Shown piece by piece: positions 11,240 through 25,609 of a DNA stretch of 25,609 nucleotides. The position numbers were made by a program, and so were the translations under genes. The notes under the pieces are model-generated. The model saw only the letters and a program-made list of their open reading frames with translations, had not been told where the DNA came from and made no database searches. Position 1 is the stretch's first letter, and every line of letters begins with the position of its first letter. Source of the DNA: a virus; the IMG/VR virus record IMGVR_UViG_3300042549_006003, positions 1 to 25,609 of that record. The stretch is one strand, 5' to 3'.

Positions 11240-11461
11240 TTATTCCGTAAGAGCAGCTATTTGTGCTTCAAGCGCCGTGATCTGCGCTTCCGCCGCGGCT
11301 ATTGAGTCATTAGCGCTCTGTATATTAGAAGCGCTTGGAGATGACACCGCGTTTTCTTGGATAATAGTTAGCTCTGCATTGTACTTATTGTATAGAGCGT
11401 TCTTGATATGTGACGTAATGACGCCAATCTTTTCTTCGTTGCTTAGACCAATCTCAGTCAT
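11240..11461 (-). CDS. Small coiled-coil-like protein, paralogue A (73 aa)
   Basis: 73 residues with AAGGAG well placed before the ATG. The sequence starts MTEIGLSNEEKIGVITSHIK, then has KYNAEL, a Ser/Pro-rich turn, and ends in a heptad-like helix (IAAAEAQITALEAQIAAL). The next gene upstream encodes a protein of exactly the same length with matching positions: L-S/T-N-E/Q-EK, HI-K/R-N, KYN-EL, SIAA, and a Leu/Ala-rich end. The two are therefore tandem duplicates. Function is unknown; position after the fibre genes suggests a virion or fibre-assembly accessory protein. Confidence 0.7.
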   Translation of the reverse strand: MTEIGLSNEEKIGVITSHIKNALYNKYNAELTIIQENAVSSPSASNIQSANDSIAAAEAQITALEAQIAALTE

Positions 11462-11564: not shown

Positions 11565-11786
11565 TTATAAAGTTCCTTCTTGTAAGCGCAGCAGTTCTGC
11601 TTGCAAGACGCCGAGTTGAACATCGCAGGCGGCGATAGACTCTTGATAAGCGTCTATTTTTTCTTGGTCTGGAGCTTGCATAGCTTGTTGGTACTGAACT
11701 GAAAGCTCGATGTTATACTTGCTTTCTTCTATGTTCCTTATGTGCCTATTTACTATATCTGTTTTTTCTTGATTTGTTAGTATCAT
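11565..11786 (-). CDS. Small coiled-coil-like protein, paralogue B (73 aa)
   Basis: 73 residues, ATG preceded by AAGGAG with good spacing and 12 bp downstream of the fibre gene. It begins MILTNQEKTDIVNRHIRNI, then has KYNIEL, a Pro-containing turn, and ends with SIAACDVQLGVLQAELLRL, a probable coiled coil. It is the same length as paralogue A and shares the EK, HI-K/R-N, KYN-EL and SIAA positions, so one arose by duplication of the other. A single cysteine lies in the C-terminal helix. Function unknown. Confidence 0.7.
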   Translation of the reverse strand: MILTNQEKTDIVNRHIRNIEESKYNIELSVQYQQAMQAPDQEKIDAYQESIAACDVQLGVLQAELLRLQEGTL

Positions 11787-11798
11787 CTTTATCTCCTT

Positions 11799-13298
11799 CT
11801 ATCCTACGGCTGTAGCGTATGCACTAGACCCGGCAGCGTTCACTGACTTAACCGACATACGAACCCAATTGTACGCGGCGGAAGTTGACGTAATTTTTCC
11901 GCTAGTAACGTTAGTAGCATAGACGTTTACAGCGGTTGCGTCGGTGTACGCATTGGTTGCTGTTGCTGAATTTCCAGAAGAGTTAATGTACGTAAATGTG
12001 TTGTTCACCGCAAACCACGGACCAGAGCTTGATGTTGCTGCCTCAAAGAAAACTCTGTAGAACGCGGCTGGCCCGAAATTAGCGTCTGCCGTAGGAGCTG
12101 ACCAAGAGGAGCTGTTGAACACTAGGTTAGGCGCAGTCCCGCTTGACGGAGTAGTTAAGCTAGTTGGAACGTTTGGCGCTTTTAGTAGAAGAGATGCAAC
12201 CGTATTAGATTCAACCTGATCTGACGTCCCTCCAGCATTTGTTGCAGTAGCAAAAGCTTTAAAGTTATAAGCAGGCGGAGACGCGTCACCTGATGTAATT
12301 GTGTATGTTACAGAAGCTGTTGATGAACTTGCCTTAAGAACAGTGCCTATCGCCCCTGGGCTAGGTGTTGCAGTAGAAGCGTATATTCCTACAAAATAAC
12401 TTGTAGGAGAGCCTGACCAGCCAGACGTAGTTGCTGTCAAAGTTGTTCCGTTGTACTGCGTGCCAGAAGGACTAAGTGTTACTGAGCCTCCTGTAGGTGT
12501 AGCCGCAGTCACTGCGACTTGATTAGAAAAAGCAGCAGTAGATCCAGTAGCGTTTGTTGCAGTTACTCTGCATCGAATAGGGCTCACGTAGAGACTTAAG
12601 AAGTTAGAAGGAGGTGTGTACGTAGAGCTTGTTGCGCCTGAAATAGCTATAAATGTTGACCCCTGGTCGTTGTACTGCCACTGATACGCGTATGTCCCAT
12701 CCGCATCATCTGGGTCCCATGTTCCATTTGTCGTTGAGTACTGTGTGCCTGGGTTACCAGTCGTTGGCGTCACCGCAGGAGCTACTGTGTTAATTGGCGC
12801 TGGCTTAGTAACAGTAACTGAACCACTTGTTGAAGTTGTTGTAGTCGAGTAGGTAGAGTTTGTTGCAGTCACAACAAAACGGTAGTACGACGTGAATGCT
12901 GGCATATCTGCGAGTGTAAGCGCGTACGTTACAGTGTTTGATCCGCCAATAGACGGGTTGGCGATAGACGTTGCAGTTCCTATATTTGTCCAAGAAGAGT
13001 TGTCAGATGACTTTTGAAACACGTAAGTACGTGAAGTAGAATCAGTCCAGCGGTAGTTTGTGCCAGTAAGAGTTGAAGGATACGTCGCATTGTTGCGAGA
13101 TATTTCTACTGTTTGAGCAATTGAAGGGGATACTGCAGATTGAAAGAATCTTTTCCATCCGCCAGCTCCAGAAGATACACGAATCCATCCATCAGTGACA
13201 GTTTTCCAGCCGCCTGCGCCAGACGCAGTTCTTATGAAATAGCTAGCGACTGTTTTCCAGCCTCCTGAGCCAGACCCGGTTCGAATATAGCCTGTCAT
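11799..13298 (-). CDS. Fibre/receptor-binding-type tail protein with Ig/Fn3-like domains and N-terminal triple repeat
   Basis: 499 residues rich in Ser, Thr, Gly and Val. The first 52 residues are three tandem copies of a roughly 17-residue unit with consensus (Y/F/W)IR(T/V)xSG(S/A)GGWK. After that come beta-sandwich segments of Ig or fibronectin-III type: NYRWTDSTSRTYVFQKSSD, YRFVVTATNSTYSTTTT, APAVTPTTGNPGTQ with YAYQWQYND, CRVTATNATGSTAAFSN, and a final domain with FYRVFFEAATSSSGPW. Such proteins display adhesive domains at the tail tip and could bind host glycans. Its ATG overlaps the TGA of the upstream fibre gene (ATGA) and has no clear ribosome site, so it is translationally coupled. 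Receptor binding is inferred from composition and position. Confidence 0.65.
   Translation of the reverse strand: MTGYIRTGSGSGGWKTVASYFIRTASGAGGWKTVTDGWIRVSSGAGGWKRFFQSAVSPSIAQTVEISRNNATYPSTLTGTNYRWTDSTSRTYVFQKSSDNSSWTNIGTATSIANPSIGGSNTVTYALTLADMPAFTSYYRFVVTATNSTYSTTTTSTSGSVTVTKPAPINTVAPAVTPTTGNPGTQYSTTNGTWDPDDADGTYAYQWQYNDQGSTFIAISGATSSTYTPPSNFLSLYVSPIRCRVTATNATGSTAAFSNQVAVTAATPTGGSVTLSPSGTQYNGTTLTATTSGWSGSPTSYFVGIYASTATPSPGAIGTVLKASSSTASVTYTITSGDASPPAYNFKAFATATNAGGTSDQVESNTVASLLLKAPNVPTSLTTPSSGTAPNLVFNSSSWSAPTADANFGPAAFYRVFFEAATSSSGPWFAVNNTFTYINSSGNSATATNAYTDATAVNVYATNVTSGKITSTSAAYNWVRMSVKSVNAAGSSAYATAVG
13140..13298 (-). repeat. Triple tandem repeat at the fibre protein N-terminus
   Basis: Three imperfect 51-60 bp units encode IRTGSGSGGWKT, IRTASGAGGWKT and IRVSSGAGGWKR. 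The units are clear at protein level and partly conserved at DNA level (TTTTCCA-CC-CC-GC-CC-GA on the plus strand). They are probably surface loops or an attachment motif to the tail. Confidence 0.75.
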
Positions 13299-14464
13299 GG
13301 GGTATACACCAACATTATGTCACCAACACTACCTGAAGTATCTGTAGAAGCAGTAAAAGAAAATGTTGCGTCAATATTTCTCAAGCCAGATAAAAAGATA
13401 GGAGAAGAAGAATCTAAATATGCTTTCGTGCCATCTAAAGTAAGCGAAGTAGACCCAACGGTTAAACTTATAAGAGTGTCAGCCTGCAAGCCGATTAGAG
13501 TACCAGCGTCCAAGGAGAGTAGATCAGTAGAATCAAGAGTAACAACGCCTCCTGGAATAAACGAAAGTGACCCGGAGGTATCTACAGCTAAGTGGACAAA
13601 GTCAGAAGAAACGTAAAGCCCAGTAGAGAAACTGCCAGTTCCATCTCCTACGTGTAGTCCGCTGTCATAGCCTGATTCAGAGTACGGACTTACTCTGCCA
13701 CTTATTACGCCAGAAGAATTGTAAAAATTTATCTGATCTGAGGAGGTTATTTCAAGTCGCTCACCTGTGGCTGAAGTGCGAATTAGACCACCAGTCACAG
13801 TAGCAGACGTCATTTCAATTGAAGCAGAAATTGTTCCAGCACCAATACGCGTAGCACTTAAGCTACCAGTTGTTATCTGTCCCGCGTCAAGATTTGATGT
13901 AACAATCACGGCGGCGTCAAGTGACCCTGCTGTAATTTTTGTAGCTGATATGCTTGCTAAGGCGTTGTTACCTAAAGTAAATCCAACCCAGGTGGTGCCG
14001 TTATACCGATAGATCTTATTATCATCATTGGTGTCAAACCAAGTATCACCAGTAACGTACGTTCCGCCTGTTGGCTGGTTATCTTGACGATAAATAGTGT
14101 TCTTACCGTCTGCCGATGCGCGGGCGGTAAGATCTACTGCTGAAAGATCGATGAACTCATCTGTGTCAGTGCTGTAGACTTTTGCAGCGCCAGTATCTGG
14201 GTCAACCCAGGTTGTACCGTCTTTTAAGTCTTCTGTTGGCTCAGTATTAGAAACTGTAGTCGTGCCAAAAGAGACTTCTTTAGGAGTCACGGTGTCAGTA
14301 GCAATATTTTTAGCTACAACTGTACGATACTGAATCTTATCAGCAGTAACCACGTTCTTCTTTAACCGCTTAGCGCCAGGGCGCTTTTCGGCAAGACGAA
14401 CACGACGCTCTACGTCTGATACAACCTTGCCAATCGTCTTACGACGTCTACGTCTGCTAGCCAA
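13295..14464 (-). CDS. Tail fibre-like protein, beta-helical
   Basis: About 389 residues. A TTG at 14473 is open but abuts its GGAGG; the TTG at 14464 (MASRRRRR) has about 9 nt of spacing and is preferred. It starts with an Arg/Lys-rich segment and a short helix (VVSDVERRVRLAEKR), then repeating beta segments: KIQYRTVVAKNIATDT, a DTWFDTNDDNKIYRYNGTTW motif common in phage tail-tip and fibre proteins, then ISATKITAGSLDAAVI, GQITTGSLSATRIGAGTI, a pattern of repeated strands typical of trimeric fibres. The C-terminal part (TLDSTDLLSLDAGTLIGLQA and following) continues the repeat and ends in a compact head. It lies between the hub protein and the Ig-type fibre protein, so it is probably the central fibre. 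Confidence 0.7.
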   Translation of the reverse strand: MASRRRRRKTIGKVVSDVERRVRLAEKRPGAKRLKKNVVTADKIQYRTVVAKNIATDTVTPKEVSFGTTTVSNTEPTEDLKDGTTWVDPDTGAAKVYSTDTDEFIDLSAVDLTARASADGKNTIYRQDNQPTGGTYVTGDTWFDTNDDNKIYRYNGTTWVGFTLGNNALASISATKITAGSLDAAVIVTSNLDAGQITTGSLSATRIGAGTISASIEMTSATVTGGLIRTSATGERLEITSSDQINFYNSSGVISGRVSPYSESGYDSGLHVGDGTGSFSTGLYVSSDFVHLAVDTSGSLSFIPGGVVTLDSTDLLSLDAGTLIGLQADTLISLTVGSTSLTLDGTKAYLDSSSPIFLSGLRNIDATFSFTASTDTSGSVGDIMLVYTP

Positions 14465-16661
14465 TTTTGTCAACCTCCGGCTCTGTCACTAGAAGGAGTT
14501 CTACTTCTTCAGGAAAACTTGGAACATCTGGAACTCTAACTTTAAATCCATCGATTTTTCTTACAAGAACTGTATCGCGCGGCTCTAGGTCACTACCAAG
14601 ACGCATTCGTACAAACTCGTCTTCAACTACGATAGAGCACCAGTCTCCAGGTGCATACTCGCCGAGCTTAGGAGATAAGGATCCGTTTACAGTTACTGTA
14701 ATATCAGAGATAGGCGTGCGCATTTCTGCTAAGTATCTTTGAGCGTGCTCATACAACTTTTCTTCTAAAAACACGTCATTTTTTGTTTCTTCTTGGTCAA
14801 GAAGCGGCCACCCAGCTGCCAAAAGATCAGTAGCAGACGCAACAGCGTACGGCTCGCTTACGTCTTCTCCAAGCCCACCTGCGTTTCCAACTACAAAGAA
14901 TCGTGTTGCAGAGTCTTCTGCGTTCTCTTCCATTGTCATGTTAATGATACTACCAGGGTACTCAAATACGAGCTTGTCTGCGCCAAAACGACTAATAGGT
15001 GAAACTTCTCCTTCTGTAGGAGGGTCTGGAAAGTCAATAGCCATTAGAACAAATTCACGAGTAAATACTGGAACAGTTCCAACGTACTCTAAGTGGCAGT
15101 CTATCCGATACTCGAAACCTTTAACTGTGTCAGAGTAATCGTCAAGTACTTCTCCGACGTTCTTAAGTTCAAATCCACGGTAATTAGTATTAGGAACATT
15201 TTTTCCACTGTACGCATCAGTTGAGTAAGAAATATCAATGTCAGAGTTGCCAGGGAACGGGCCGTAGGTTCCAACGCTCACACTTGGAGTTCTTGTTGCA
15301 GTAGCACTAGTAACCGCAGTTGTGGGCATGTCAGTGTCAGCGAGACTTACTGTAAAGGTCGTAGATGTAGGCGTTTCAATTACGGTATGCAAAGTGTCAA
15401 AAACGATTGCCGGAACTTGTACTACTACTGTCCCAGTAGGAGAGACTGCGGTTGAAGGCACATCTGTAGCGATTTTTGCATACGTAATAGTTGTAGTTGA
15501 AGGTACGTTGTCAACAATGTAAACTCCATTAAATGTAGAATCAACTCCGCTGACGGTGACGGTATCTCCAAGGTTAGCTCCGTGAGCCGTAGACGTGGTG
15601 ATAGTTGCAACGTTGTCGGTGAGTTTCTTGTTGTTTACAGCTACAGATGACCCGTCAACTCCAGAAAGAACTACTGTGTCTCCAATGGTAAAACCGTGCG
15701 CAGCAGATGTTGTTATTGTTCCAACAAAATTAGTAATGCTTTTGAAAGTTACTGTCTTTTGCACTGCAGTAAGACTAGCTGTTGGGACATTAGCAGCAGT
15801 AATGTTGGCGGTAAATGTATTAGTGGCAGGGGTAGATACTACGTCGTAGACGCCATTAAACGTAGAATCAACGTTAAACACCTCTACAGTTTGCGTTGGT
15901 ATTGCCCCGTGGGCAGCAGATGTAGTAAAAGTAGCAACGTTATTTAGCAAAGCTCTACTAGTAATCGCGACGTCGTTTCTTAAAGCTGGTTCAATCTCGA
16001 TATTAGCAAATGTTGTTCCACTAAAATCGCTTAGCACCTCGTCAACTAACTGACGCACATAATCATAGGTGTCTACGCGCACATACACAGTTGCATCAAT
16101 ATAAGTTCCATTTGGAATTCCAGAAGAGGTAATGGTGAACTGATCTGTCCCGTTGGCAGTAGCTACTGTGTAGTAGTCGTTATACTCGTACATATCAGTC
16201 GTAAGAAACTCGAGCTTAATCGGAGAGTTCACTGGAAAGGCATACTCTGAGTTCTGAAGAGTTACTGTAGCAGTGCCACCTGACACAACAACGTTAGCTC
16301 CAAAGTCGTGAGAAAAAGTCTGCCATATGTGACGATGATGAAAGTAACTTGTAAACTCTGAGCCATTTACATTTAATGTTCTGTCAAGAACATTGTATGA
16401 GCGGCTCCAGATGATTCCGCCCCATATGCATACTTGGTCGCGCACTATGTAAAGAGCGGTCTTGCCTGGCATCGTGCTGTTATAGATGTCCATGTGAGCA
16501 GTCTCTGGGATAACTGGAATAGTCCCGCTAAAAGAGCCAGCTGCTTTAATAGATCTTTCAAAGTTAACACTGCGAAAAGGAATTTCAGCAAGCACTCTAT
16601 TGCTGAGTAGGTCAGTAGTAAAATACCTATACTCTGCTGCCGTGCCGTCTGTCGCTGCCAT
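14457..16661 (-). CDS. Tail hub/baseplate protein carrying three to four copies of the recurrent beta module
   Basis: 734 residues. The N-terminus (FRSVNFERSIKAAGSFSGTI, YIVRDQVCIWGGIIWSRSYN, VNGSEFTSYFHHRHI) and the C-terminus (EENAEDSATRFFVVGNAGG, YLAEMRTPISDITVTVNGSL, YAPGDWCSIVVEDEF) fit a siphovirus hub protein of the minor tail type (Gp37-like). Between them are insertions of the recurrent ATITTSxxHG...GDxVxVSG...NGxY...VPxxTTFTY module: one at about 234-304, one split at 305-340 and 417-457, and one complete copy at 343-416 lying inside the split copy. A divergent relative may span 120-196. The gene follows the Dit gene with AAGGAT before its ATG. The hub would contact the distal tail ring and the central fibre. 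Confidence 0.72.
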   Translation of the reverse strand: MAATDGTAAEYRYFTTDLLSNRVLAEIPFRSVNFERSIKAAGSFSGTIPVIPETAHMDIYNSTMPGKTALYIVRDQVCIWGGIIWSRSYNVLDRTLNVNGSEFTSYFHHRHIWQTFSHDFGANVVVSGGTATVTLQNSEYAFPVNSPIKLEFLTTDMYEYNDYYTVATANGTDQFTITSSGIPNGTYIDATVYVRVDTYDYVRQLVDEVLSDFSGTTFANIEIEPALRNDVAITSRALLNNVATFTTSAAHGAIPTQTVEVFNVDSTFNGVYDVVSTPATNTFTANITAANVPTASLTAVQKTVTFKSITNFVGTITTSAAHGFTIGDTVVLSGVDGSSVAVNNKKLTDNVATITTSTAHGANLGDTVTVSGVDSTFNGVYIVDNVPSTTTITYAKIATDVPSTAVSPTGTVVVQVPAIVFDTLHTVIETPTSTTFTVSLADTDMPTTAVTSATATRTPSVSVGTYGPFPGNSDIDISYSTDAYSGKNVPNTNYRGFELKNVGEVLDDYSDTVKGFEYRIDCHLEYVGTVPVFTREFVLMAIDFPDPPTEGEVSPISRFGADKLVFEYPGSIINMTMEENAEDSATRFFVVGNAGGLGEDVSEPYAVASATDLLAAGWPLLDQEETKNDVFLEEKLYEHAQRYLAEMRTPISDITVTVNGSLSPKLGEYAPGDWCSIVVEDEFVRMRLGSDLEPRDTVLVRKIDGFKVRVPDVPSFPEEVELLLVTEPEVDKIG
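15291..15749 (-). repeat. Recurrent beta module, nested pair (one copy inside another)
   Basis: The outer copy starts at about 15749 (KSITNFVGTITTSAAHGFTI, GDTVVLSGVDG), stops near 15642, and resumes at about 15413 (HTVIETPTSTTFTVSLADTD) to 15291. A full inner copy occupies 15414-15635 (KKLTDNVATITTSTAHG, GDTVTVSGVDSTFNGVYIVD, VPSTTTITYAKI). Removing the inner copy restores a normal outer copy. Confidence 0.8.
15750..15962 (-). repeat. Recurrent beta module, single copy in the hub protein
   Basis: Encodes SRALLNNVATFTTSAAHG, VEVFNVDSTFNGVYDVV and TPATNTFTANITAAN. It adjoins the nested pair directly. The GD before VEV is replaced by TQT, so it is more diverged than other copies. Confidence 0.75.
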
Positions 16662-16702
16662 TATTTATCCTTCGTCGTAAGAGTCGTTAAAGCTATTGTA
16701 TT

Positions 16703-18838
16703 CTATCCGAGCCAAGCTGAGCGGTAAAAAACTTCAAGAACTGCTGTTGAATTTGCGTTTCCATCATCGTAGAAGCTGATGATGTTATCTCCAGGAGCAA
16801 GTAGAATCCATTCTGCTAATACGTCAACTAACCCACGTTTTCCAATTGCGTCTCCGTTAAGCGCAACCTCGTGTTCGCGTGTGTCAATTTCAAGAATGTC
16901 AGGACCAAACGTAATCGTGCCAGAGCTCGCAGTTGCAGAAACGTTTGTAGCCGTTTTAGCGTATGTTAGCGTAGTGGTTGTAGGGACTGTAAGAATAGTA
17001 AATGTGCCATTAAAGGTAGAATCAACTCCAGTAACAACTATTTCGTCTCCTGCCAGCATCCCATGAGCAGCGGACGTTGTAAGAGTTGCAATATCACCCG
17101 TTAGAGCTTTGTTAGAAACTGTGCGTGTTAGAACTCCGCGCAGCGACTCAATGATAGTAATGGTCTCGTTTGTAGTTTCATTAAAAATAGTCGCAGGGCC
17201 GGTAACCGGGCCAGTAACTTGAAGAACTACTGATGTGTATGCTGTTCCAGTATTCGTTACCGTAGCAGTCCCGCTTGCAGCAGGCGATGCACTTTCTCCA
17301 GCAATAGTTACTGAGCGGTAGCCTAGCTCATGCGCCTCGTACCATTCATACTTTAGAGGGTCTGGAGCCCTTAGTCCAATAGAGAACTCTGTGCGCCCAC
17401 GTGCATTTACAGTCTTGATCTCAGGACGCCCTGAGAGACGAACGTAGGACGCCTTAGTAGGGTTCTCGTTAGTACGTAACCAGTCACCAACGTAAACCAA
17501 ATCTGTATTCTTAATAAGTTTATCACGCGCCGCGGCAACCTGCGAAGCACTAGGAGTAACAAACACACCTTCAAGAGTAATGACTCGTGCATTATAGCGT
17601 CCACGTACATCGTATGAACCGTCGCCATATCCGCGAGGAATATCACGAACTTCTGGGTCAGGGTGCGTCCACCATCCTTCAATATTTGTGCACACCCATA
17701 CAACACCGTCTTCATCAATTGTGTTAAGAACAAGGCTACCAAGAGAAATATCAGCGTTAAGCTGCATACCCGTGACCTTAGGGTACGGAACTTTGCTAAG
17801 ACCTTTATTAACTGTTGTTGTTTCATAAGCCTGCGTTACATCATCAAAGTATTCTTCAACATAAGAATTAGCTTCAAGAAGAACTGCGTCAAGCAAGAAC
17901 TTCTTAGAAGTTGTCCCCGCTGTGGGTTGAAGCACATATATAAGCGCAGCCGCTGCATTTGCAGGAGAGGTGAACACTCCAGACAAGCGTGTCCAGTCAA
18001 TACCGTCAACAACTTCGAACGCAGTAGTGCTTGAAGTGGATATAAATGATCCACCACTCGCGGCAGTGTACCAGTCAATGTCAATTCTAAATGTCCCTGT
18101 TTCTTCGTCTGCAGGGACCTTTACATACGCGGATACTGCGTACGATATTGAAGCAGACACCACGATGCGAGATGAAGTAACCGCTCCTGAATTAGCCAAC
18201 GCAGGCTTAGTAACTTCAAGACAGGACGAACCAAAGAAAGAATCGTAAGTAACTCTTTGTGCTGATGTTGAATCTTTTATAACAGTGCCTGTGTCAGCCG
18301 CTGACGTAATCGAGCCACTTACTGTAGTCGTGTATGTAAATGTAGTAGCTGAAGGTACGCCTGCAACAGTCCATGTACCTTCAAGTGAAGGGTTACCGTT
18401 TGTCCCATCAACCGTAACTACGTCGCCAGCTACAAGAAGGTGCGCGGCTGATGTAGTTATAACCGCAGTAGTCCCGGACCTCTCGGAATTAGTTATAGTT
18501 TTTTCTGTGGCTGTAGCTACTGCGGACTTGGCAAGGTAGACTGTGCCAGTGTCCGGAGCTGAAGTGATAGTGCCACTCGCGCTAGTAGTGTACGTAAAGG
18601 TAGTAGTCGTTGGAACTGACGTAATTACGTACGTTCCATGTAGCACGGAGTTACCATTTGTGCCAGAGATGGTTACTGACTGCCCAATAACTAAACCATG
18701 CGTGCTTGCTGTTGTAATTGTTGCAGTAGTCCCGGTGCGGTATGTGTTAGTGATACGCAAACGAAGTGCAGAAGATGGCGACCATCCAGTAGCGTTAGTC
18801 TTAAAAGATGGATTAACAATTAGGTTATTTCTAGCCAC
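16703..18838 (-). CDS. Distal tail protein (Dit) with CBM-like front domain and three inserted beta modules
   Basis: 711 residues from the GTG at 18838 (MARNNLIVNPSF), chosen because GGAGGT lies 7 nt upstream; the frame is open to 18895 but that would overlap the tape measure by 56 bp. Residues 1-27 and about 190-345 form one carbohydrate-binding jelly roll: NLIVNPSFKTNATGW, then CLEVTKPALANSG, YAVSAYVKVPADEETG, WTRLSGVF, FLLDAVLLE. Two beta modules (28-101 and 114-188) interrupt it. The Dit ring domain follows (TGMQLNADISLGSLVLN, RVITLEGVFVTPSASQ, RTEFSIGLRAPDPLKYEW). The C-terminal galectin-like domain (PATIFNETTNETITIIESL, then ILEIDTREHEVALNGD and WILLAPGDNIISFY) contains a third module at 575-644. 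It forms the ring joining tail tube and baseplate. Confidence 0.8.
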   Translation of the reverse strand: MARNNLIVNPSFKTNATGWSPSSALRLRITNTYRTGTTATITTASTHGLVIGQSVTISGTNGNSVLHGTYVITSVPTTTTFTYTTSASGTITSAPDTGTVYLAKSAVATATEKTITNSERSGTTAVITTSAAHLLVAGDVVTVDGTNGNPSLEGTWTVAGVPSATTFTYTTTVSGSITSAADTGTVIKDSTSAQRVTYDSFFGSSCLEVTKPALANSGAVTSSRIVVSASISYAVSAYVKVPADEETGTFRIDIDWYTAASGGSFISTSSTTAFEVVDGIDWTRLSGVFTSPANAAAALIYVLQPTAGTTSKKFLLDAVLLEANSYVEEYFDDVTQAYETTTVNKGLSKVPYPKVTGMQLNADISLGSLVLNTIDEDGVVWVCTNIEGWWTHPDPEVRDIPRGYGDGSYDVRGRYNARVITLEGVFVTPSASQVAAARDKLIKNTDLVYVGDWLRTNENPTKASYVRLSGRPEIKTVNARGRTEFSIGLRAPDPLKYEWYEAHELGYRSVTIAGESASPAASGTATVTNTGTAYTSVVLQVTGPVTGPATIFNETTNETITIIESLRGVLTRTVSNKALTGDIATLTTSAAHGMLAGDEIVVTGVDSTFNGTFTILTVPTTTTLTYAKTATNVSATASSGTITFGPDILEIDTREHEVALNGDAIGKRGLVDVLAEWILLAPGDNIISFYDDGNANSTAVLEVFYRSAWLG
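16907..17116 (-). repeat. Recurrent beta module inside the Dit C-terminal domain
   Basis: Encodes SNKALTGDIATLTTSAAHG, GDEIVVTGVDSTFNGTFTI, VPTTTTLTYAKTATN. It separates the ETITIIESL and ILEIDTR strands that are normally joined by a short loop in Dit galectin-like domains. Confidence 0.8.
18275..18499 (-). repeat. Recurrent beta module, second copy in the Dit front domain
   Basis: Encodes TNSERSGTTAVITTSAAH, GDVVTVDGTNGNPSLEGTW, VPSATTFTYTTTVSG. It belongs to the NGNPSLEGTW subtype and shares 35 identical bases (18369-18403) with the copy near the right edge (25244-25278). Confidence 0.85.
18536..18757 (-). repeat. Recurrent beta module, first copy in the Dit front domain
   Basis: Encodes TNTYRTGTTATITTASTHG, GQSVTISGTNGNSVLHGTY, VPTTTTFTYTTSASG. 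It is tandem with the next copy, separated by about 12 residues. Confidence 0.85.
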
Positions 18839-18839
18839 G

Positions 18840-21731
18840 TTATGCACCTCCACGGCGTAGTTGGAATGCAATCTGGCGTGAAACCATATTGGCAAGCTCT
18901 GATTCGTTCATTCCTTGTGAAGGATAGACGTTAACGGTAAGGTCTGTTGTCTTACTGTTGTTGTTACTACTTGTGGCAAGAAGCTCAATCATTGCCTTAT
19001 CACGGACTGAAAGGCCGTTTGCGTCAAGCGGTTCGATACGCTCCGGGCGACCAGCTTCTGCAACACGAGCGATAGTGCCACCAGCTTTTGGATAGACAGT
19101 TCCACCTTCTGCAAACTTAGGAATCTTAGCAAATCCTAAAGTGCCTCCGCCAAAAGGACCAACTTTAGGAAGAGTGATACTAGCCTTACCGAGAGAGTTA
19201 TTCCAGAGATCAGCAATTCCGTTTATTACTCCACGTACTACGGAGATTACTCCAGAGAAGGCAGTTGATACTGTACCAGCGATGCTCCCAAAAGCGTTAG
19301 CTAATCTACCAACAGTGTTAATGAGGCCTACAATTAGACTTGAAACTACTTTAATAGCTCCGACAAGGACAAATTTTAGAATAGGGACTAAAGTAACAGC
19401 CAGAATGTCTCCTATAGTCTTAAAGACTTTAGAAGTCCCTTCAAGGGTTGGCTTTAATCCTTTTAGCGCTTCTTTAATAGAATTAAATGCGGTAGAAAGC
19501 GATCCGCTGACTGCAGAAACTAAGCCAGATATTGCTTCACGTAATTGCTCACTATTTTGGTACGCCACATAAAAGATTGCAACAACAGCTGCAATGGCAG
19601 CAACTGCTAACAATACTGGAGCGCTAATTCCAGCTAAAATTGTAATTAGAGGAGCAAGTGCAGCTCTAAGCATGCCGACAGGGTTTAGCACGAAGCTTAG
19701 CACTTTTGCTATTGCTAGGAATGATCCTACAATAACTTTTCCTGCAAAAACAATAACGCTAGATATAAGTCCGATAGCGCTAAAGAACGCGAGAATTTTT
19801 GCTGCATTATCGAATAATTCTTTCACGGCCGGGTTAGAAAGAGCTGCTGTTACTGTTTTTAGAGCGCCTGTCAGCGTGTTCCAGAATACTGTAATAGCTC
19901 CAGAAGAAAGAGTAATTTTAGCAAACTCAGCAAAAGCTACTATGAATTTTGCAAGAGCAGGGCTAGACGCATTAAGCTCTTTTAGTATTTCGCCAAAGAT
20001 AGGAACTGCGTCTTTAAGAATGTCAAAAAAGACTTTTACGTTAGGGTCAGCTCCTGCCTTCAAGATCTCTTTAATAAGACCTCCAAAGAATCCAAGAACT
20101 GACTTAGAGTTTTCAGCTACTGCCTTAAAGTACTTAGACAGTGCTGTCTGCCCTTCTACACTGCCAGAGAACTTTTCAAACTCTGCTGTAACGTCCTTAA
20201 AATACTCAATGAGAATGTATCCACCACCACCAGGTGTAAAATTAGCTCTAGTTATGTTTACAATTCCGCTAATAGCATTTCCAAAAACTTCACCAATTTT
20301 TGCTGCAATGTCTCCAGCCTTGTTAAACATCTTTTCAAGCTCACCCGTAGCTTGCCCCGCGTCTAGATAGCTAGCCCAGCCGGCAGTCTTCTTTTCTAAG
20401 AACTTATTAAACTTATTTGCCAGAGGCTGAGCTGAAACAAGAGTCGACAAGAATCCATCGTAAAGATTACTTACTGTTCTTGCATAACTTTCTATATTAG
20501 TGCCAGCATTTCTAATAACTTGCTCTAGATCACCAATATTCTCAATATCGGTAATAGCTTTTGTTATAGTGCCAAAAGACTTACCAATGCTGTCACCAAG
20601 TTCAACAAGAACTGGCTTTAGTGCTGGGAAAAGTTTTGTGCGAAGTCTTTCCAAACCTGCTTCTAACTGATCAAAAAGCTTAGTGCCTAACGCGTCGCGC
20701 AGTTCCTTGAGTGAAGGCATGAACGTACCAACCATGTACTTAACAAAGTCTTGCGCTTCTTTAGAGAGGCCGGATAAAGCTTCTGCAAATGCAGTATCAC
20801 CGGCTCCGCCTCCTTGAGCTTTTTTAAGCGCGTCTTGAGCATCTTTTTGATCACGAAGAGCATCAATCTGACTTTTCTTGGCGTTTAAGTACGTGTCAGT
20901 CTGCTCATAAACTTCCGTGCCTGCGGCTGCTGCAGCGTCACTTAAGCGTTCTTGCTCTTTACGAAGATCTGCGTTACGGTCTTTAGCTTTACGTAGATTG
21001 AGTTCAGCTTCTTGAAACGCAAGATTTGCTTCTCTACGAGCACGGGAGTTAGGCGGTAAGTCTTGAACACGTTGAAGAGTTTCGCGAGCTTTTTCTAGCT
21101 CAATAGCAGCTTTCTTTTCGCCAAGCGCTGCGTCTTCTGCATCAAAACCAAGTTGTTGGATTTCTTCTTGAGCGTCTTCAACCGCGCGCGTAAAGTCTCG
21201 CTGAGCTTCTGTTACTCGTTCTGTCGCTCTTAGTAGACGCTTAAGAGCGTCTTCTTCCGCTTGTACGTCTTTAGTAGAACCCTTGCGTGCTTTAGTTCCT
21301 GCAGAAATTGCTGCGCCTACGCCTTTAAGTGCACTCGACAGACCTATGGCAGCAATACCAATCGACGTGAGGGCAGTAGCAAATACAATGCCAGCAGGCG
21401 CGGCTGCAACAAGAGCAGATGCTAATGAAACTAGTCCGCCAACTAATGCACCTATACCAGAAACTAGTTGAGAGATTAGCGGTCCTACTAGGTATCCAGT
21501 ACGAATAAGTCCTTGGAATTGCTTTCGTGCACGAATTGCTGCCTTTTCAAAGCCAGACATAGACCTGCCTATGCTGTCTCCAGCTCCACCGCCAAATCCA
21601 CGAGAGAAAGACTCTCCTACAGCTTTGCCATCTCTTTCAAGATTGATCCCGCTTGCTGCACGACGGACTTCGTTTTCAAAGCCAGTAGTTATAGCTTTAA
21701 CAACGATGTATGCGTCGCCTACGACTGCCAC
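18840..21731 (-). CDS. Tape measure protein
   Basis: 963 residues, the longest product in the window, from a GTG with GAGGAGGT 6 nt upstream. The N-terminus (YIVVKAITTGFENEVRRAASG) is typical of siphovirus tape measures. It is followed by a hydrophobic region (about 80-135), long charged helices (about 153-300, rich in Glu, Lys and Ala: probable coiled coil), a large helical middle, and a second hydrophobic stretch at about 640-725 (IGLISSVIVFAGKVIVGSFL, later VLLAVAAIAAVVAIFYVAY) that could insert in the host membrane during DNA entry. The C-terminus has the common KFAEGGTVYPKAGGTIARVAEAG motif. At roughly 0.15 nm per residue, the tail would be about 140-145 nm long. It follows the two-frame chaperone, the canonical siphovirus order. 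Confidence 0.93.
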   Translation of the reverse strand: MAVVGDAYIVVKAITTGFENEVRRAASGINLERDGKAVGESFSRGFGGGAGDSIGRSMSGFEKAAIRARKQFQGLIRTGYLVGPLISQLVSGIGALVGGLVSLASALVAAAPAGIVFATALTSIGIAAIGLSSALKGVGAAISAGTKARKGSTKDVQAEEDALKRLLRATERVTEAQRDFTRAVEDAQEEIQQLGFDAEDAALGEKKAAIELEKARETLQRVQDLPPNSRARREANLAFQEAELNLRKAKDRNADLRKEQERLSDAAAAAGTEVYEQTDTYLNAKKSQIDALRDQKDAQDALKKAQGGGAGDTAFAEALSGLSKEAQDFVKYMVGTFMPSLKELRDALGTKLFDQLEAGLERLRTKLFPALKPVLVELGDSIGKSFGTITKAITDIENIGDLEQVIRNAGTNIESYARTVSNLYDGFLSTLVSAQPLANKFNKFLEKKTAGWASYLDAGQATGELEKMFNKAGDIAAKIGEVFGNAISGIVNITRANFTPGGGGYILIEYFKDVTAEFEKFSGSVEGQTALSKYFKAVAENSKSVLGFFGGLIKEILKAGADPNVKVFFDILKDAVPIFGEILKELNASSPALAKFIVAFAEFAKITLSSGAITVFWNTLTGALKTVTAALSNPAVKELFDNAAKILAFFSAIGLISSVIVFAGKVIVGSFLAIAKVLSFVLNPVGMLRAALAPLITILAGISAPVLLAVAAIAAVVAIFYVAYQNSEQLREAISGLVSAVSGSLSTAFNSIKEALKGLKPTLEGTSKVFKTIGDILAVTLVPILKFVLVGAIKVVSSLIVGLINTVGRLANAFGSIAGTVSTAFSGVISVVRGVINGIADLWNNSLGKASITLPKVGPFGGGTLGFAKIPKFAEGGTVYPKAGGTIARVAEAGRPERIEPLDANGLSVRDKAMIELLATSSNNNSKTTDLTVNVYPSQGMNESELANMVSRQIAFQLRRGGA

Positions 21732-21749
21732 TTGCTCACCTCCTCGCTT

Positions 21750-22196
21750 TTACCTAGAAAACGGTTCGTCTAATACTGCACCAAATGGCTTTGCAGATGA
21801 GGCATCAACTGGCGTAGCCGGGACAAACGCCTTCGTTGGTCCCTTTAATGGATCAAATGGAACTACGGTGTCATCTTCTTCGTAATCGTCAAAGTTCTTG
21901 ATGTTTCCATTGGCGTTTGTAGAGTTGTTCGTGCGCACTCCGCCGTATGGATACTTGTACCCGTAGAAATCTTGGTAAAGAATCTCGCGACTACGACTAC
22001 GTCCTTCTGCTTGTTCGCCTGAAGCGTAGTCCATGTCTTCTTCTAAAAAGAAGTGAAGAACGTCTAACATGTCAGATGCTTCCATTTCTCTTAGATTAAG
22101 TCCGTTCACGAGTGCTTTTCCGTTAATATATGGCCAGAGGTCAATCCCCCAAGTTAGGAGACTTCTGGCTCCGTTTCCGGGCGTCCTGCGTACACC
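21750..22196 (-). CDS. Tail assembly chaperone, downstream frame (probable -1 frameshift product)
   Basis: The frame is open from 22196 and contains a GTG at 22109, but conserved-looking sequence begins before that GTG: LLTWGIDLWPYINGKALVNG, then LREMEASDMLDVLHFFLEED, GRSRSREILYQDFYGYKYPY, and an acidic tail. This fits the second part of a siphovirus tail assembly chaperone, usually made only as an extension of the upstream chaperone by programmed frameshifting. Moving back one base from the upstream frame between 22196 and 22157 enters this frame; the upstream stop is at 22154-22156. The pair would coat the tape measure and recruit tail tube subunits. Independent initiation at the GTG is less likely, since its ribosome site is weak. 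The gene ends 18 bp before the tape measure. Confidence 0.72.
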   Translation of the reverse strand, partial: GVRRTPGNGARSLLTWGIDLWPYINGKALVNGLNLREMEASDMLDVLHFFLEEDMDYASGEQAEGRSRSREILYQDFYGYKYPYGGVRTNNSTNANGNIKNFDDYEEDDTVVPFDPLKGPTKAFVPATPVDASSAKPFGAVLDEPFSR

Positions 22197-22492
22197 TCAA
22201 CAAGCCACCCCGAGATATCGCCAAGTGTTTCTACTGAAACAATCTTGTCTGGACTTTCTAGTAGAGCCGAGAATCTAGTGTAGCTTTCTGGTAAAAGAAC
22301 ATGCTCGAAAAACATGTTAATTGTCTTTGCAGATTCAGAAGCGTCGTCTCCGCTTGAACGAGCAACGAGGTCAAGAAGCGTCTTGCCTTGAAGTTGTTCG
22401 CGGCAAGAAAAATCTTCACCGTAAAGCTTGAAAGTTACTGGCTCTTTTTCACCAGCGTTTTTGCCAGAGCCAAAGTCTCTGTATTTAGTCAT
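22154..22492 (-). CDS. Tail assembly chaperone, upstream frame
   Basis: 112 residues with GGAGG 8 nt before the ATG. Small and acidic, with VTFKLYGEDFSCREQLQGKTLLDLVARSS, ESAKTINMFFEHVLLPESYTRF, and DISGWLVEVYAGRP at the C-terminus, a pattern common to the gpG-like chaperones of actinobacterial siphoviruses. Its position directly before a second frame and the tape measure supports this. It should be made in excess over the frameshifted form. The sequence past VEVYAGRP is the zone where the shift must occur. Confidence 0.82.
   Translation of the reverse strand: MTKYRDFGSGKNAGEKEPVTFKLYGEDFSCREQLQGKTLLDLVARSSGDDASESAKTINMFFEHVLLPESYTRFSALLESPDKIVSVETLGDISGWLVEVYAGRPETEPEVS
22157..22196 (-). 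other. Zone of presumed -1 ribosomal frameshift
   Basis: In this 40-nt window the upstream chaperone frame and the -1 frame are both open. It contains ...CGC CCG GAA ACG GAG... in the zero frame. No canonical X XXY YYZ heptamer is seen; CCCGGAAAC is the closest run. A run of five G lies just after the zero-frame stop. Confidence 0.5.
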
Positions 22493-22525
22493 CTTTTCTT
22501 CCTCCGTTTTTGCGTTTGTGTCTTT

Positions 22526-22545
22526 ATTAAGACGTTTGTCTTAAT
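22526..22545 (-). promoter_or_regulatory. Short perfect hairpin before the tail chaperone gene
   Basis: ATTAAGAC and GTCTTAAT form an 8-bp perfect stem (9 with the flanking T-A pair) around GTTT in the 55-bp gap between the gp10-like and chaperone genes. AT-rich and without a T-run, it could mark mRNA processing or weak termination that adjusts chaperone expression. Confidence 0.35.
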
Positions 22546-22547
22546 AG

Positions 22548-22943
22548 TTATCTTATCAAATAAAGGTTGTCCGCGAGGAACTTATTAGGCTTAGTTCCAG
22601 GGTGTCTTACAAGTCGTGAATACACTACTCTGCTGCCAGAAGTGAATCTCAACATTGTTGCTCTATCAGGAGTAATAATATGAGGTTTAGTTCCTTCATG
22701 GTGGGCTAACGCATAGCTAAGCGGAGAGCCGATTCTCATCTCTTGACCTAGAGGAGCTCGCGTCTGTCTCATATGAATAGAATTTTTCAGTCTTCCAGTG
22801 TCTACACCAACCTGTGCTTTTGCAGCTGCGATGATAGCTCTTCCTTTTACGAAGAGGTGACGACCAACAGGACCAAAAGGGTCGTTGAGAAGAAAGTCTA
22901 GGTCTTTTCTACGAAAAACAATTTTACTAAACACTAAGGACAT
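22548..22943 (-). CDS. HK97 gp10-like neck/tail-completion protein
   Basis: 131 residues. The segment VKGRAIIAAAKAQVGVDTGRLKNSIHMRQTR, with VDTGRLKNSI, is the hallmark of HK97-gp10-like proteins that act at the head-tail junction or tail completion. It is followed by MRIGSPLSYALAHHEGTKPHIITP, also typical (YA..HEGT-PH). Its ATG lies 1 bp beyond the stop of the upstream gene, so translation is coupled. Length is in the usual range for the family. Confidence 0.8.
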   Translation of the reverse strand: MSLVFSKIVFRRKDLDFLLNDPFGPVGRHLFVKGRAIIAAAKAQVGVDTGRLKNSIHMRQTRAPLGQEMRIGSPLSYALAHHEGTKPHIITPDRATMLRFTSGSRVVYSRLVRHPGTKPNKFLADNLYLIR

Positions 22944-22944
22944 T

Positions 22945-23448
22945 TTATGGAACCGCCAACGTTACTTGCATGCTTGTTGTTTGGAATCCACCTTCAAATC
23001 CTGAAACGTCTGCTGTCGCAATAACACCCATGCCAAACTCACCTGGCTCCCACTGATCAATCTTGTTGAGCAGGCGCATAAACATCCATGCATCAACTGT
23101 AGCAGCTTCAGAACCTTCTTGAATCTTGTCTCCTGAAGGCGCTCTTCCATTTACACCAACGACTGGAATCTCGCGTGATATTGAAATAGTCAATACTGCG
23201 CTGCGTGGCATAGTGCAGCGCTGAGGACTACCTGCTTGGTCTCCTGGAGGGCCAAGGTAAATCTGCACGAACGAGACTACAAGCTGCTCGCAATCAACGG
23301 CAGGTGAACCTACTGTCCAAAATCTACGAGATGGCAAAGGAACATTGTTTTCTTCAAATACAGTAATGGTCTTATCAAGAACGCTATCCATTAGATTTTT
23401 AAGGCTTAAGGCGTCTTCTGACACCATAGAGACGTCTGTTATTGGCAT
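22945..23448 (-). CDS. Tail terminator-like head-tail connector protein
   Basis: 167 residues starting MPITDVSMVSEDALSLKNLM. It has a helical N-terminus (NLMDSVLDKTITVFEENNV), a strand-rich centre (CEQLVVSFVQIYLGPPGDQ, AVLTISISREIPVV), and a C-terminal strand pair (GVIATADVSGFEGGFQTTSM, QVTLAVP). This is the layout of actinophage tail terminators or neck proteins, which cap the tube and dock the tail to the head. It lies between the adaptor and gp10-like genes. Only GGGGA about 9 nt upstream serves as a ribosome site. The exact role (terminator versus stopper) cannot be fixed from sequence. Confidence 0.6.
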   Translation of the reverse strand: MPITDVSMVSEDALSLKNLMDSVLDKTITVFEENNVPLPSRRFWTVGSPAVDCEQLVVSFVQIYLGPPGDQAGSPQRCTMPRSAVLTISISREIPVVGVNGRAPSGDKIQEGSEAATVDAWMFMRLLNKIDQWEPGEFGMGVIATADVSGFEGGFQTTSMQVTLAVP

Positions 23449-23508
23449 CGTGTTATATCCCGTCAGTTGCGTATGAAAGTGTCTTATATGTCGTCTGAGT
23501 GCCCATAA

Positions 23509-24909
23509 CTAGCCGCCTAGAGTGTATGTAGGGGTAGGGTCAGTAGCTAGGCGAAGTTTAAGGTTTCCAGAGGCAATATAGACAGTTTCTACGCCATCTG
23601 CTTCTGCGTTATTAGGCTGACTCGCGTACAAGTCCCAGGTACCAGGGTCAGAGAAGCCTACGTAGTTGTACGCTTCATCGTAGCCAACGAAAAGTGTCAA
23701 AGTATCGCGTGATTCATTAGTAACAACGGCTGTTCCGGTGTCTGCAGTCAGCGTGACGTCGTCTACGCGGTCAGCCTCAGCACGAGCGTAGACAAACGTG
23801 GTAGCTGTAGGCACCTCAGTGATGTAGTAGCTTCCGTTGAAGGTAGCGTTAATGCCAGTAATAGTTACAAGGTCGCCAGCAATAAAACCGTGCGAGGTAG
23901 ACGTGGTAATAGTTGCAACGTTGTCGGTGAGTTTCTTAAAAGTTACGCTTTTGGTAATGTCGGTAGTGATGGTGTTGATAGAAACTGATGTAGATTCAAG
24001 GTCTTTTGACGCGAGTCCTGACCAATTACTAATTTTTAAGTATGGTACCCACGCATTATTTGTTACAAGGAAGTTCGCGTTAAGCGAATCAATGTTGACC
24101 TCTAGTGTAGCGCCTTCTTCGCCTGTGACGTACATATCAAGACTGCTCGCAGCCAGCTTGAGAGGCTTAGGTACATGACGACGAGCGCGTGGAACATCTA
24201 CTGAGAATACGCGTGACTTTGCACGTGCCTTATCTGGGTTTGAAGACTTAAGGAAGAGATCAACAACGTATAGACCTGTTCGCATGTCATCAATGAAGTC
24301 CTGATTGTCAAGAATAGTGTATGAAACGCCTTGACGTGATACCGAGGTAATACGCTGTGGCAACGCACAATCGTCAGACCCTGACCAAAGCTTAATAAAT
24401 TCAGTTGCAAGAACACGAGCAGCAGCTCTTCCTGCTGCTGGTGCTGGTGAGCCATACGAGTATGTCACTTCAATGTTGCAAGGTGTCCATGGGACACCAG
24501 AGCGTGCCTGTAAGGTTGAATGGTCAACGAGATAGTAACGACTAGGGTTAACAATCTTGCCAGTTCTATCTCGCACTGAGTGCACCTGGGTTACTGGACG
24601 ACCGCGAAGTCGTAAGCGCGATGATGGAGACATACCGTCTGTTGTCATTTCAGCATAGTCGTCAAACTCATCAAAAGGAATATTGTAGACCTGGCCGTCT
24701 ACAAGCTCTGCCGTATAGTTCTTAGCCGACTGGCCTAGGCGATAAGCTCTAGATGCGCAAATGTATCTTTCTGTGACAGTAACAACTCCGCCATATTTTC
24801 TACCAGATAATGACCACAGGATCTGAGACGCAGTCTTGACCGCTTCATACGCGTATTCGCTATCTGCGTAGTCATCAAGCTCGTCAGTGGTGACCCAAAG
24901 GTTTGACAC
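23509..24909 (-). CDS. Head-tail adaptor with unusual C-terminal beta-rich extension
   Basis: 466 residues from a GTG with GAGGAC upstream. The first 240 or so look like a head-tail adaptor: TTDELDDYADSEYAYEAVKT, ILWSLSGRKYGG, a strand-rich middle (RLRGRPVTQVHSVRD, YYLVDHSTLQ), VTYSYGSPAPAAGRAAARVL, and LPQRITSVSRQGVSYTILD. The remaining 220 or so are an extra beta domain (SLDMYVTGEEGATLEVNIDS, VPYLKISNWSGL, then DTLTLFVGYDEAYNYVGFSD, TWDLYASQPN). A recurrent module at about 321-397 sits inside that extra domain. Typical adaptors end near 170-240 residues, so the extension may project outward at the neck, as a whisker or decoration. The adaptor identity is likely; the role of the extension is inferred. 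Confidence 0.7.
   Translation of the reverse strand: MSNLWVTTDELDDYADSEYAYEAVKTASQILWSLSGRKYGGVVTVTERYICASRAYRLGQSAKNYTAELVDGQVYNIPFDEFDDYAEMTTDGMSPSSRLRLRGRPVTQVHSVRDRTGKIVNPSRYYLVDHSTLQARSGVPWTPCNIEVTYSYGSPAPAAGRAAARVLATEFIKLWSGSDDCALPQRITSVSRQGVSYTILDNQDFIDDMRTGLYVVDLFLKSSNPDKARAKSRVFSVDVPRARRHVPKPLKLAASSLDMYVTGEEGATLEVNIDSLNANFLVTNNAWVPYLKISNWSGLASKDLESTSVSINTITTDITKSVTFKKLTDNVATITTSTSHGFIAGDLVTITGINATFNGSYYITEVPTATTFVYARAEADRVDDVTLTADTGTAVVTNESRDTLTLFVGYDEAYNYVGFSDPGTWDLYASQPNNAEADGVETVYIASGNLKLRLATDPTPTYTLGG
23719..23949 (-). repeat. Recurrent beta module in the head-tail adaptor
   Basis: Encodes FKKLTDNVATITTSTSHG, GDLVTITGINATFNGSYYIT, VPTATTFVYARAEAD. At DNA level 23897-23937 matches 15589-15629 of the hub gene with one mismatch in 41 bases. 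Confidence 0.85.
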
Positions 24910-24953
24910 GTGTTTGTCCTCGTCTACTCGTCGTTAGTTTATTCTAATAGGGA

Positions 24954-24998
24954 AGCGGCATGCCTGTGTATACATGTATTACACATCGGCATGCCGCT
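24954..24998 (-). terminator. Strong bipartite hairpin after the structural gene (possible terminator)
   Basis: In the 102-bp gap, arms AGCGGCATGCC (24954-24964) and GGCATGCCGCT (24988-24998) are an 11-bp perfect inverted repeat. A second stem TGTGTA/TACACA extends it above a 2-nt bulge. On the minus strand it lies 13 bp past the stop of the upstream gene and is followed by TTCCCTATTAGAATAAAC, AT-rich but without a clean T-run. It is probably a partial terminator or 3' stabiliser giving the abundant upstream protein a higher mRNA level than the adaptor. Confidence 0.6.
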
Positions 24999-25011
24999 CC
25001 ACACTTGCTAA

Positions 25012-25609
25012 TTAGGAGGTTGGATCCTCTGTTGACGCAATGATAAAGTCTGTTGCGTTATCTGCGTTGTAATCTTCGTTTCCAGGAACGTTATACGCTG
25101 TTGTTGATCCCTGTGAAGTGAAGTCTGTTACCGCGCGTGCATCTGCCGCTACTAAAGCAGTGCCTGTATCAACAGCAGAGGTAATAGTTCCACTTGTTGT
25201 TGTTGTATATGTGAAGGTTGTTGTTGTTGGGACGCTTGCGATTGTCCATGTACCTTCAAGTGAAGGGTTACCGTTTGTACCAGAAACTACCACTGTATCT
25301 CCTGCCACGAAGCCGTGAGCTGTTGAAGTTGTAAGTGTCGCAGTTGATCCTGTACGAGCAGAGTTAGAGATAGTCTTTGAGATATCTCCGTGCCATGTGT
25401 AGAAGCCCTTGCGCCCTGTTGGAGCCCATGATGCACGAGCGTATGAGTATGGGCGCTCTGCAGCAACTGGGAATTCCCAGCGCTCATCGAGGCCTGAACC
25501 AAACTCTTCGTTACCAAGGCCGTAACCTTCAAATGTGTTTGCAAGCATGCCGTTTTCAATTACGCGATCTCCTGAAAGGCGAAGCTTAACATATGGGAAT
25601 ACCCAGTGG
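25012..25609 (-). CDS. Major virion structural protein (tail tube or capsid), C-terminal part
   Basis: The frame is open to the right edge, so only the last 198 residues or so are visible. The ATG at 25548 has no ribosome site and is internal. The sequence HWVFPYVKLRLSGDRVIENG, NTFEGYGLGNEEFGSGLDE, RWEFPVAAERPYSYARASW suggests an abundant virion protein. Then follows a recurrent beta module and a short C-terminal segment (TDFTSQGSTTAYNVPGNED). No tail tube gene occurs between the terminator-like gene and the chaperone gene, where it is usual, so this may be the displaced tube protein. By position, just before the adaptor, it could instead be the major capsid protein. Either type often carries a C-terminal Ig-like domain. 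A strong hairpin follows it. Confidence 0.55.
   Translation of the reverse strand, partial: HWVFPYVKLRLSGDRVIENGMLANTFEGYGLGNEEFGSGLDERWEFPVAAERPYSYARASWAPTGRKGFYTWHGDISKTISNSARTGSTATLTTSTAHGFVAGDTVVVSGTNGNPSLEGTWTIASVPTTTTFTYTTTTSGTITSAVDTGTALVAADARAVTDFTSQGSTTAYNVPGNEDYNADNATDFIIASTEDPTS
25150..25377 (-). repeat. Recurrent beta module in the right-edge structural protein
   Basis: Encodes SNSARTGSTATLTTSTAHG, GDTVVVSGTNGNPSLEGTW, VPTTTTFTYTTTTSG. It belongs to the NGNPSLEGTW subtype and shares 35 identical bases with the Dit copy at 18369-18403. Confidence 0.85.

Follow-up and report, generated by a model that had tools for sequence, protein, structure and literature searches.

A protein module of ~70 residues, carried by four virion genes in the DNA analysed here, probably nests within itself six to eight deep in related phages, in an array split over two genes, with the result that five modules and the final strand of the Dit (distal tail) protein would be completed in trans. 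The DNA in question, “the window,” is the whole stretch of 25,609 nucleotides (positions 1 to 25,609 of IMG/VR virus record IMGVR_UViG_3300042549_006003). All virion genes and modules located below lie on its minus strand.

The following account, taken as a whole, seems to us a likely one. The module would be an insertable FCCH-like beta barrel, small and of about six strands, which enters surface loops without breaking the fold of its host protein. It would have spread by recombination among the genes for the major tail protein (MTP), neck adaptor, Dit, and hub of siphophages related to phages of Actinobacteria. Its own loop, between a half ending in “GDtVtVSG” and a half starting in “FNGtY,” would accept insertions as well, leading to nesting. 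Repeated insertion into the innermost loop would then give a rod, the chain running outward via the N-halves and back via the C-halves. In one group of relatives, the terminal hairpin of Dit would be the base from which the rod grows, with the chain broken part-way back into two genes, each of five modules and the Dit C-terminal domain being completed by two polypeptides. The gene break would leave two free ends part-way along the rod, where the second polypeptide would add fibronectin-III domains. Rods on a Dit ring would point outward and may act as rigid spacers or arms by which adhesion domains are raised and anchored about the tail tip and neck. The observations behind this account are the anatomy of the sequences, empty sites in relatives, the placement of modules in a tree, balanced counts of module halves, and the relocation of the terminal strand of Dit.

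The module, the genes that carry it, and its role

The right part of the window, on the minus strand, holds the structural genes of a siphophage. As read, these are the MTP C-terminus, the head-tail adaptor, two small neck genes, two chaperone-like genes, the tape measure, Dit, the hub, and two fibre-like genes, which is the order found in the cultured Actinomycetia phage DSL-LC01, with thymidylate kinase and thymidylate synthase next. The gene cut by the window edge (25012..25608) had been described in the first-pass annotation simply as a right-edge structural protein carrying the module. The module is there, and the protein can now be named as the C-terminal part of the MTP from its identity to the MTPs of DSL-LC01 and of L027 (L-numbers denote loci of relatives), the latter being 87% identical over 198 residues. 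The adaptor gene (23509..24909) matches phrog_783 with E = 5e-38. The Dit gene (16703..18895) carries the SPP1_Dit C-terminal domain (PF22768) at 27.7 bits, above the 25-bit cut-off, which places it with siphovirus Dits; the same domain scores 29.3 bits in the unsplit Dit of L010 and 30.6 bits in the split Dit of L045. Its N-terminal domain is CBM_4_9-like, at 22.9 bits (below the cut-off of 25.9) in the window and 40.3 bits in the intact homologue, L010. The hub gene (14457..16661) matches phrog_1885, and Foldseek aligns its AlphaFold2 model (pLDDT 78.7, pTM 0.65) with the T5 tail-tip, diffocin, Listeria gp18, and other hub proteins, with E down to 6e-5 and low global TM-scores, which assigns it a hub fold.

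A profile built from seven seed copies of the module, which match themselves by construction, recovers seven intact copies. The MTP has one (25150..25368, 97 bits; also placed in the module alignment) and the adaptor has one in its C-terminal extension (23722..23937, 101 bits). Dit has three, scoring 90, 94, and 99 bits: DN1 (18530..18760) and DN2 (18272..18505), which lie in tandem in a loop of the CBM-like domain and are also placed by the module tree, and D3 (16907..17116), in a loop of the C-terminal domain. The hub has two (91 and 102 bits), namely H1 (15744..15962) and a copy at 15420..15632 that sits within the loop of another. This interrupted copy, H2, is matched by the profile in two parts: its N-half (15645..15743, 30 bits) ends in SGVD, the intact 102-bit copy follows, and the C-half (15291..15416, 7 bits) then resumes. 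The original count of at least eight copies in four virion genes therefore holds for seven intact modules, the eighth being not a free copy but one split by another, and the copies span 15291-25368 of the window rather than 15150-25377 as proposed. A degenerate ninth copy, H0, is likely in the hub (16080..16307; residues 119-194), because that stretch has the same six-strand pattern as the module in the predicted structure and gives weak C-half scores in relatives.

Independently of the profile, a cross-gene tblastn search with Dit as the sole query found the MTP copy with E = 7e-28, the nested hub copy with 2e-18, the adaptor copy with 2e-16, and the other hub copies with 7e-12 and 1e-6. The reported absence of the module from the tape measure, the chaperones, and the DNA metabolism genes is borne out, with every such open reading frame of the window scoring ≤1 bit against the module profile.

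What kind of domain is this? No family could be assigned to the module with confidence from scans of Pfam, PHROGs, and NCBIfam, and a search of PDB sequences returned only a weak match to the phage tail protein gp15 (E = 0.017). By structure, Foldseek matches the module to F1-ATPase subunits and to the FCCH-containing E1 enzymes UBA1 and UBA6. The UBA1/UBA6 matches reach a Foldseek probability of 1.00 over ~110-150 columns, with TM-scores that are low because only one of many modules aligns. The E1_FCCH profile (PF16190) scores 14.1 and 15.9 bits in window proteins and 17.3-17.4 bits in those of L045, all below its gathering score of 29.5 bits. As modelled, the module resembles the FCCH barrel. 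To the FCCH domain of E1 ubiquitin-activating enzymes it shows a local fold match and weak profile matches, and it differs in that the phage module has no enzyme context and is dispersed and nested in virion proteins. For the nested segment as a whole, Foldseek found no matching solved structure; the best viral structure match is a 1247-residue protein (527 columns, TM 0.55).

The identity of the host proteins fits decoration of the virion surface, and we favour a rod-building spacer that would serve as a scaffold for host adhesion. The module might instead be a glycan-binding adhesion domain in its own right, its copies raising avidity. In lactococcal 936 phages, the neck protein, the MTP, and the evolved Dit, which are the protein kinds concerned here, contain proven carbohydrate-binding modules (CBMs), with host binding shown for two (PMC6669499), and two of the window copies lie inside a CBM_4_9-like domain. 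We think direct glycan binding by the module unlikely. The CBM_4_9 match in Dit falls outside the modules; over the module residues themselves, the Pfam, PHROGs, and NCBIfam scans gave no CBM, Ig-like, or lectin match, and the fold match is to the FCCH barrel. The residues that are invariant in the alignment (A, TT, H, G, P, and T) look structural, of the kind that keep a fold, and nesting would put most copies along a shaft.

Spread between virion genes

The module had been proposed to be an intragenomic mobile domain, and homologous phages carrying every copy at the same place were named as what would argue for ancient fixed domains. That objection falls, since relatives have empty sites at five positions: MTP, adaptor, Dit C-terminal domain, Dit CBM loop, and hub nest. 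In the annotated MTP of DSL-LC01, blocks that are 82% and 75% identical to the window lie on either side and the module between them is missing. The adaptor module is present in 22 of 58 loci (proteins of ~455 aa) and absent from 36, the nearest module-free forms being ~383 aa long. The D3 site is precisely empty in L013 and L015, whose flanking residues closely match L010. Among the Dits seen, DN1 and DN2 interrupt the CBM_4_9-like domain only in the window and L008, and the domain is uninterrupted in L027, L087, and L010. The nested hub copy occurs in L027, L087, and the window and not in the 656-aa hubs of relatives, a filled hub being 735 aa long.

A tree of 245 modules suggests where some of these copies came from. 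The modules are short and support is moderate, with values of 0.82-0.89 for the cross-gene placements. DN1 and DN2 fall among MTP modules, where the MTP copy of the window itself is the sister of DN2 (support 0.87). The sisters of the nested hub copy are adaptor modules (0.82), not the hub copy that hosts it. The remaining copies cluster by gene position, in D3, H1, adaptor, and MTP clades, from which we conclude that most module sites are old. The window copies are only 40-68% identical to each other in DNA, so the transfers must be old. Even the MTP and DN2 copies, at 70% identity in protein, share 68% in DNA, and their transfer was therefore not recent.

The low DNA identity and the grouping of most modules by position would also be expected if the copies were ancient fixed domains and the differences among relatives were lineage-specific losses rather than spread. 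We consider such a history quite improbable, as it has to accommodate DN1 and DN2, seen in two Dits and placed with MTP modules, and a nested hub copy that is restricted to three hubs and groups with adaptor modules. A single insertion is a simpler history than the loss of this copy, at exact boundaries, from inside a module in every other relative. Spread of the module between virion genes is thus supported by the empty sites and the tree. The hallmarks of a mobile element are another matter. When empty and filled Dit sites were compared directly in DNA, no target-site duplication was seen, and a ~70-residue module without a mobility gene, splicing motif, or target duplication does not qualify as a mobile element or intein, so that “mobile” should be read as a domain spread by recombination.

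Probable nesting of modules in relatives and the two-gene Dit

Self-nesting, which the first-pass annotation did not notice, is the most unusual feature of the module. Nests were detected with separate N-half and C-half profiles. In relatives, including cultured Microbacterium phages, a run of N-halves leads to one complete module, and a matching run of C-halves follows, to a depth of six levels in the hub and seven to eight in Dit. The hub presents a series: one level in most relatives, two in the window, L027, and L087, and about six in Microbacterium phages and others. The hub of L048 has six N-halves then six C-halves, as do those of L049 and L090 with one weak C-half counted by eye. An AlphaFold2 model of a six-level hub segment, built from eight sequences, has pLDDT 85.7 and pTM 0.68; in space, each N-half would pair with its C-half, and the nested array may well be rod-shaped. 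A scan of bacterial genomes with the nested hub returned no relative. We rejected the idea that one particular hub module hosts the nest in every phage; Microbacterium-type hubs carry two full modules before the nest, which makes the module that hosts it there uncertain.

In Dit, the terminal hairpin (16706..16777; SFYDDGNANSTAVLEVFYRSAWLG) is the site at which relatives have the nested array and the gene break. It is module-free in the window and in most relatives. Read by eye, L112 has one module there, and L086, whose Dit is a single chain, has a tandem module together with a two-level nest; in other relatives the site holds seven to eight levels split over two genes. The nests of Big4, A3Wally, and Cece differ from those of Zooman, Pumpernickel, and L045 by one whole module, in the innermost loop; Big4 and Zooman are Microbacterium phages.

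Where the nest is deep, gene 1 encodes the Dit core, all of the N-halves, and two or three C-halves, and ends there. Gene 2 begins at a start codon of its own and encodes fibronectin-III domains (E = 4e-38), then five C-halves, and finally the usual terminal strand of Dit (YRSGW). In Pumpernickel, the two genes are gp95 and gp96. In agreement with this division, the match to the SPP1_Dit model (97 positions) breaks off at position 89 in gene 1 of L045 and runs to 97 in the unsplit L010. Over the two genes, N- and C-halves balance in all 13 distinct pairs, as seven N and 2+5 C (Pumpernickel, Zooman, L045, L048, L049, and L100) or eight N and 3+5 C (Big4, A3Wally, Cece, L046, L051, L052, and L090). 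These counts use profile matches alone in the best-scoring genomes, and weak halves were added by eye in L046, L049, L051, L052, and L100. The two gene products would assemble into one structure.

Read along the sequence, N-halves adjoin N-halves and C-halves adjoin C-halves, just as they would in two independent half-repeat arrays, or solenoids, that had expanded separately. Against this, the halves balance in all 13 two-gene Dits counted and in the best-scored hubs. In the one- and two-level forms (window, L112, and L086), modules have entered whole, at a single point, and the difference between close relatives is an entire module at the nest centre. Separate expansion is for these reasons very unlikely, and we retain nesting.

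The missing end of Dit can be followed more widely. A further 80 loci were added, and among 100 distinct Dit open reading frames, 22 lack the terminal strand by pattern while lying away from a contig end. Four were set aside: in L075 and L205 the strand is present in slightly altered form, the sequence available for L170 includes no next gene, and in L139 the next gene runs off the contig. In 17 of the 18 testable strand-less cases, the next gene ends in the strand (RSGW); among 67 strand-bearing Dits, no next gene ends in this way (Fisher p = 6e-17, to be taken only as a guide because the test treats related phages as independent). New cases among the added contigs are L143, L144, L145, and L162. 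The exception is L149 (13054-19371), where a strand-less nested Dit is followed by a gene of 2106 aa that has C-halves and no RSGW end. In scans for further split Dits, Microbacterium-type alignments gave few new contigs and a more diverse alignment gave more. The genes are adjacent, and in the same frame in some phages, but a sequencing or assembly artefact, or a frameshift or read-through that joins the parts, is scarcely credible. The split recurs among cultured phages (five isolates) and in at least eight contigs from metagenomes, with differing relative frames. In every pair, gene 1 ends in a stop codon and gene 2 starts at an ATG of its own, which in most has a Shine-Dalgarno-like site; in the Microbacterium group, conservation of the gene 2 N-terminus begins at that ATG.

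Some nests hold more than halves. In the hub genes of L052 (7166-11707) and L095 (9971-14506), extra complete modules lie in linkers of the returning C-half run, making these linkers another type of insertion site in the nest. In the nested Dit of L051 (1-3276), an extra CBM-like stretch of ~170 residues lies inside the N-half run at about residues 735-900, and other domains can apparently enter the nest.

Known systems and further observations

Modular exchange in phage tails is known. So are beta domains scattered over the virion, and FCCH-like modules in phage proteins have already been named in databases; the phage protein A0A6J5SG50 in BFVD, for example, is called “Ubiquitin-activating enzyme E1, FCCH domain containing protein.” The module is therefore known in kind, and what seems new is the nesting with its division between two genes.

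Three systems invite comparison. Ig-like domains occur on many phages, scattered over tail fibres, major tail proteins, and head proteins (Fraser et al. 2007, cited in PMC7602432). They are, like our module, small beta domains outside the core function of virion proteins, but they belong to another fold and family; they are added at various places, and the sources consulted do not describe them as self-inserted or shared between genes. The lactococcal 936 phages have accessory beta domains on the same three kinds of carrier protein as here; theirs are CBMs, whereas the present module is FCCH-like and nests. In crAss-like phages, the BACON beta domain has multiplied in tail-associated proteins by duplication and horizontal transfer (PMC6949934). 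BACON arrays run head-to-tail, and the word “nested” is absent from that article.

Tandem, not nested, arrays of ~6-8 modules also occur in our material, in the Dit C-terminal region of another group whose Dit is unsplit (L101, L103, L106, L108, L109, L117, L120, L121, and L122), and those of L120 and similar Dits are the like-for-like counterpart of the BACON arrays.

Within the open-access literature, we found no description of a self-nested module of such depth or of a nest split over two genes, no papers on nested or self-inserting domains, and none that treats phage FCCH modules or the Microbacterium phages concerned, which is weak evidence of novelty because subscription journals lay outside the search.

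If the account is true, phages have a new way of building, with a single small unit, an appendage that is both rigid and branched. In the self-nesting geometry, each added module is tied by two strands and not by one, so the rod should be stiffer, and the nest keeps a readable record of the order of insertion. The two-gene Dit would be an example from nature of one fold completed by two polypeptides, and can be tested in cultured Microbacterium phages. Nesting would also explain the long minor tail proteins of these phages that are annotated without domain assignment.

A few minor observations may be of use to those annotating related genomes. In L017 (4438-5562), a module copy lies in the gene upstream of the MTP, the only such case among the loci examined. 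Elsewhere in the window, two predicted proteins of 73 aa (11240-11461 and 11565-11786) look like diverged paralogues, possibly forming a coiled coil. The gene at 11799-13298 starts with three 51-nt tandem repeats (13143-13282), encoding IRT(G/A)SGxGGWKTV-like units, and the rest of its product looks Ig/FN3-like.
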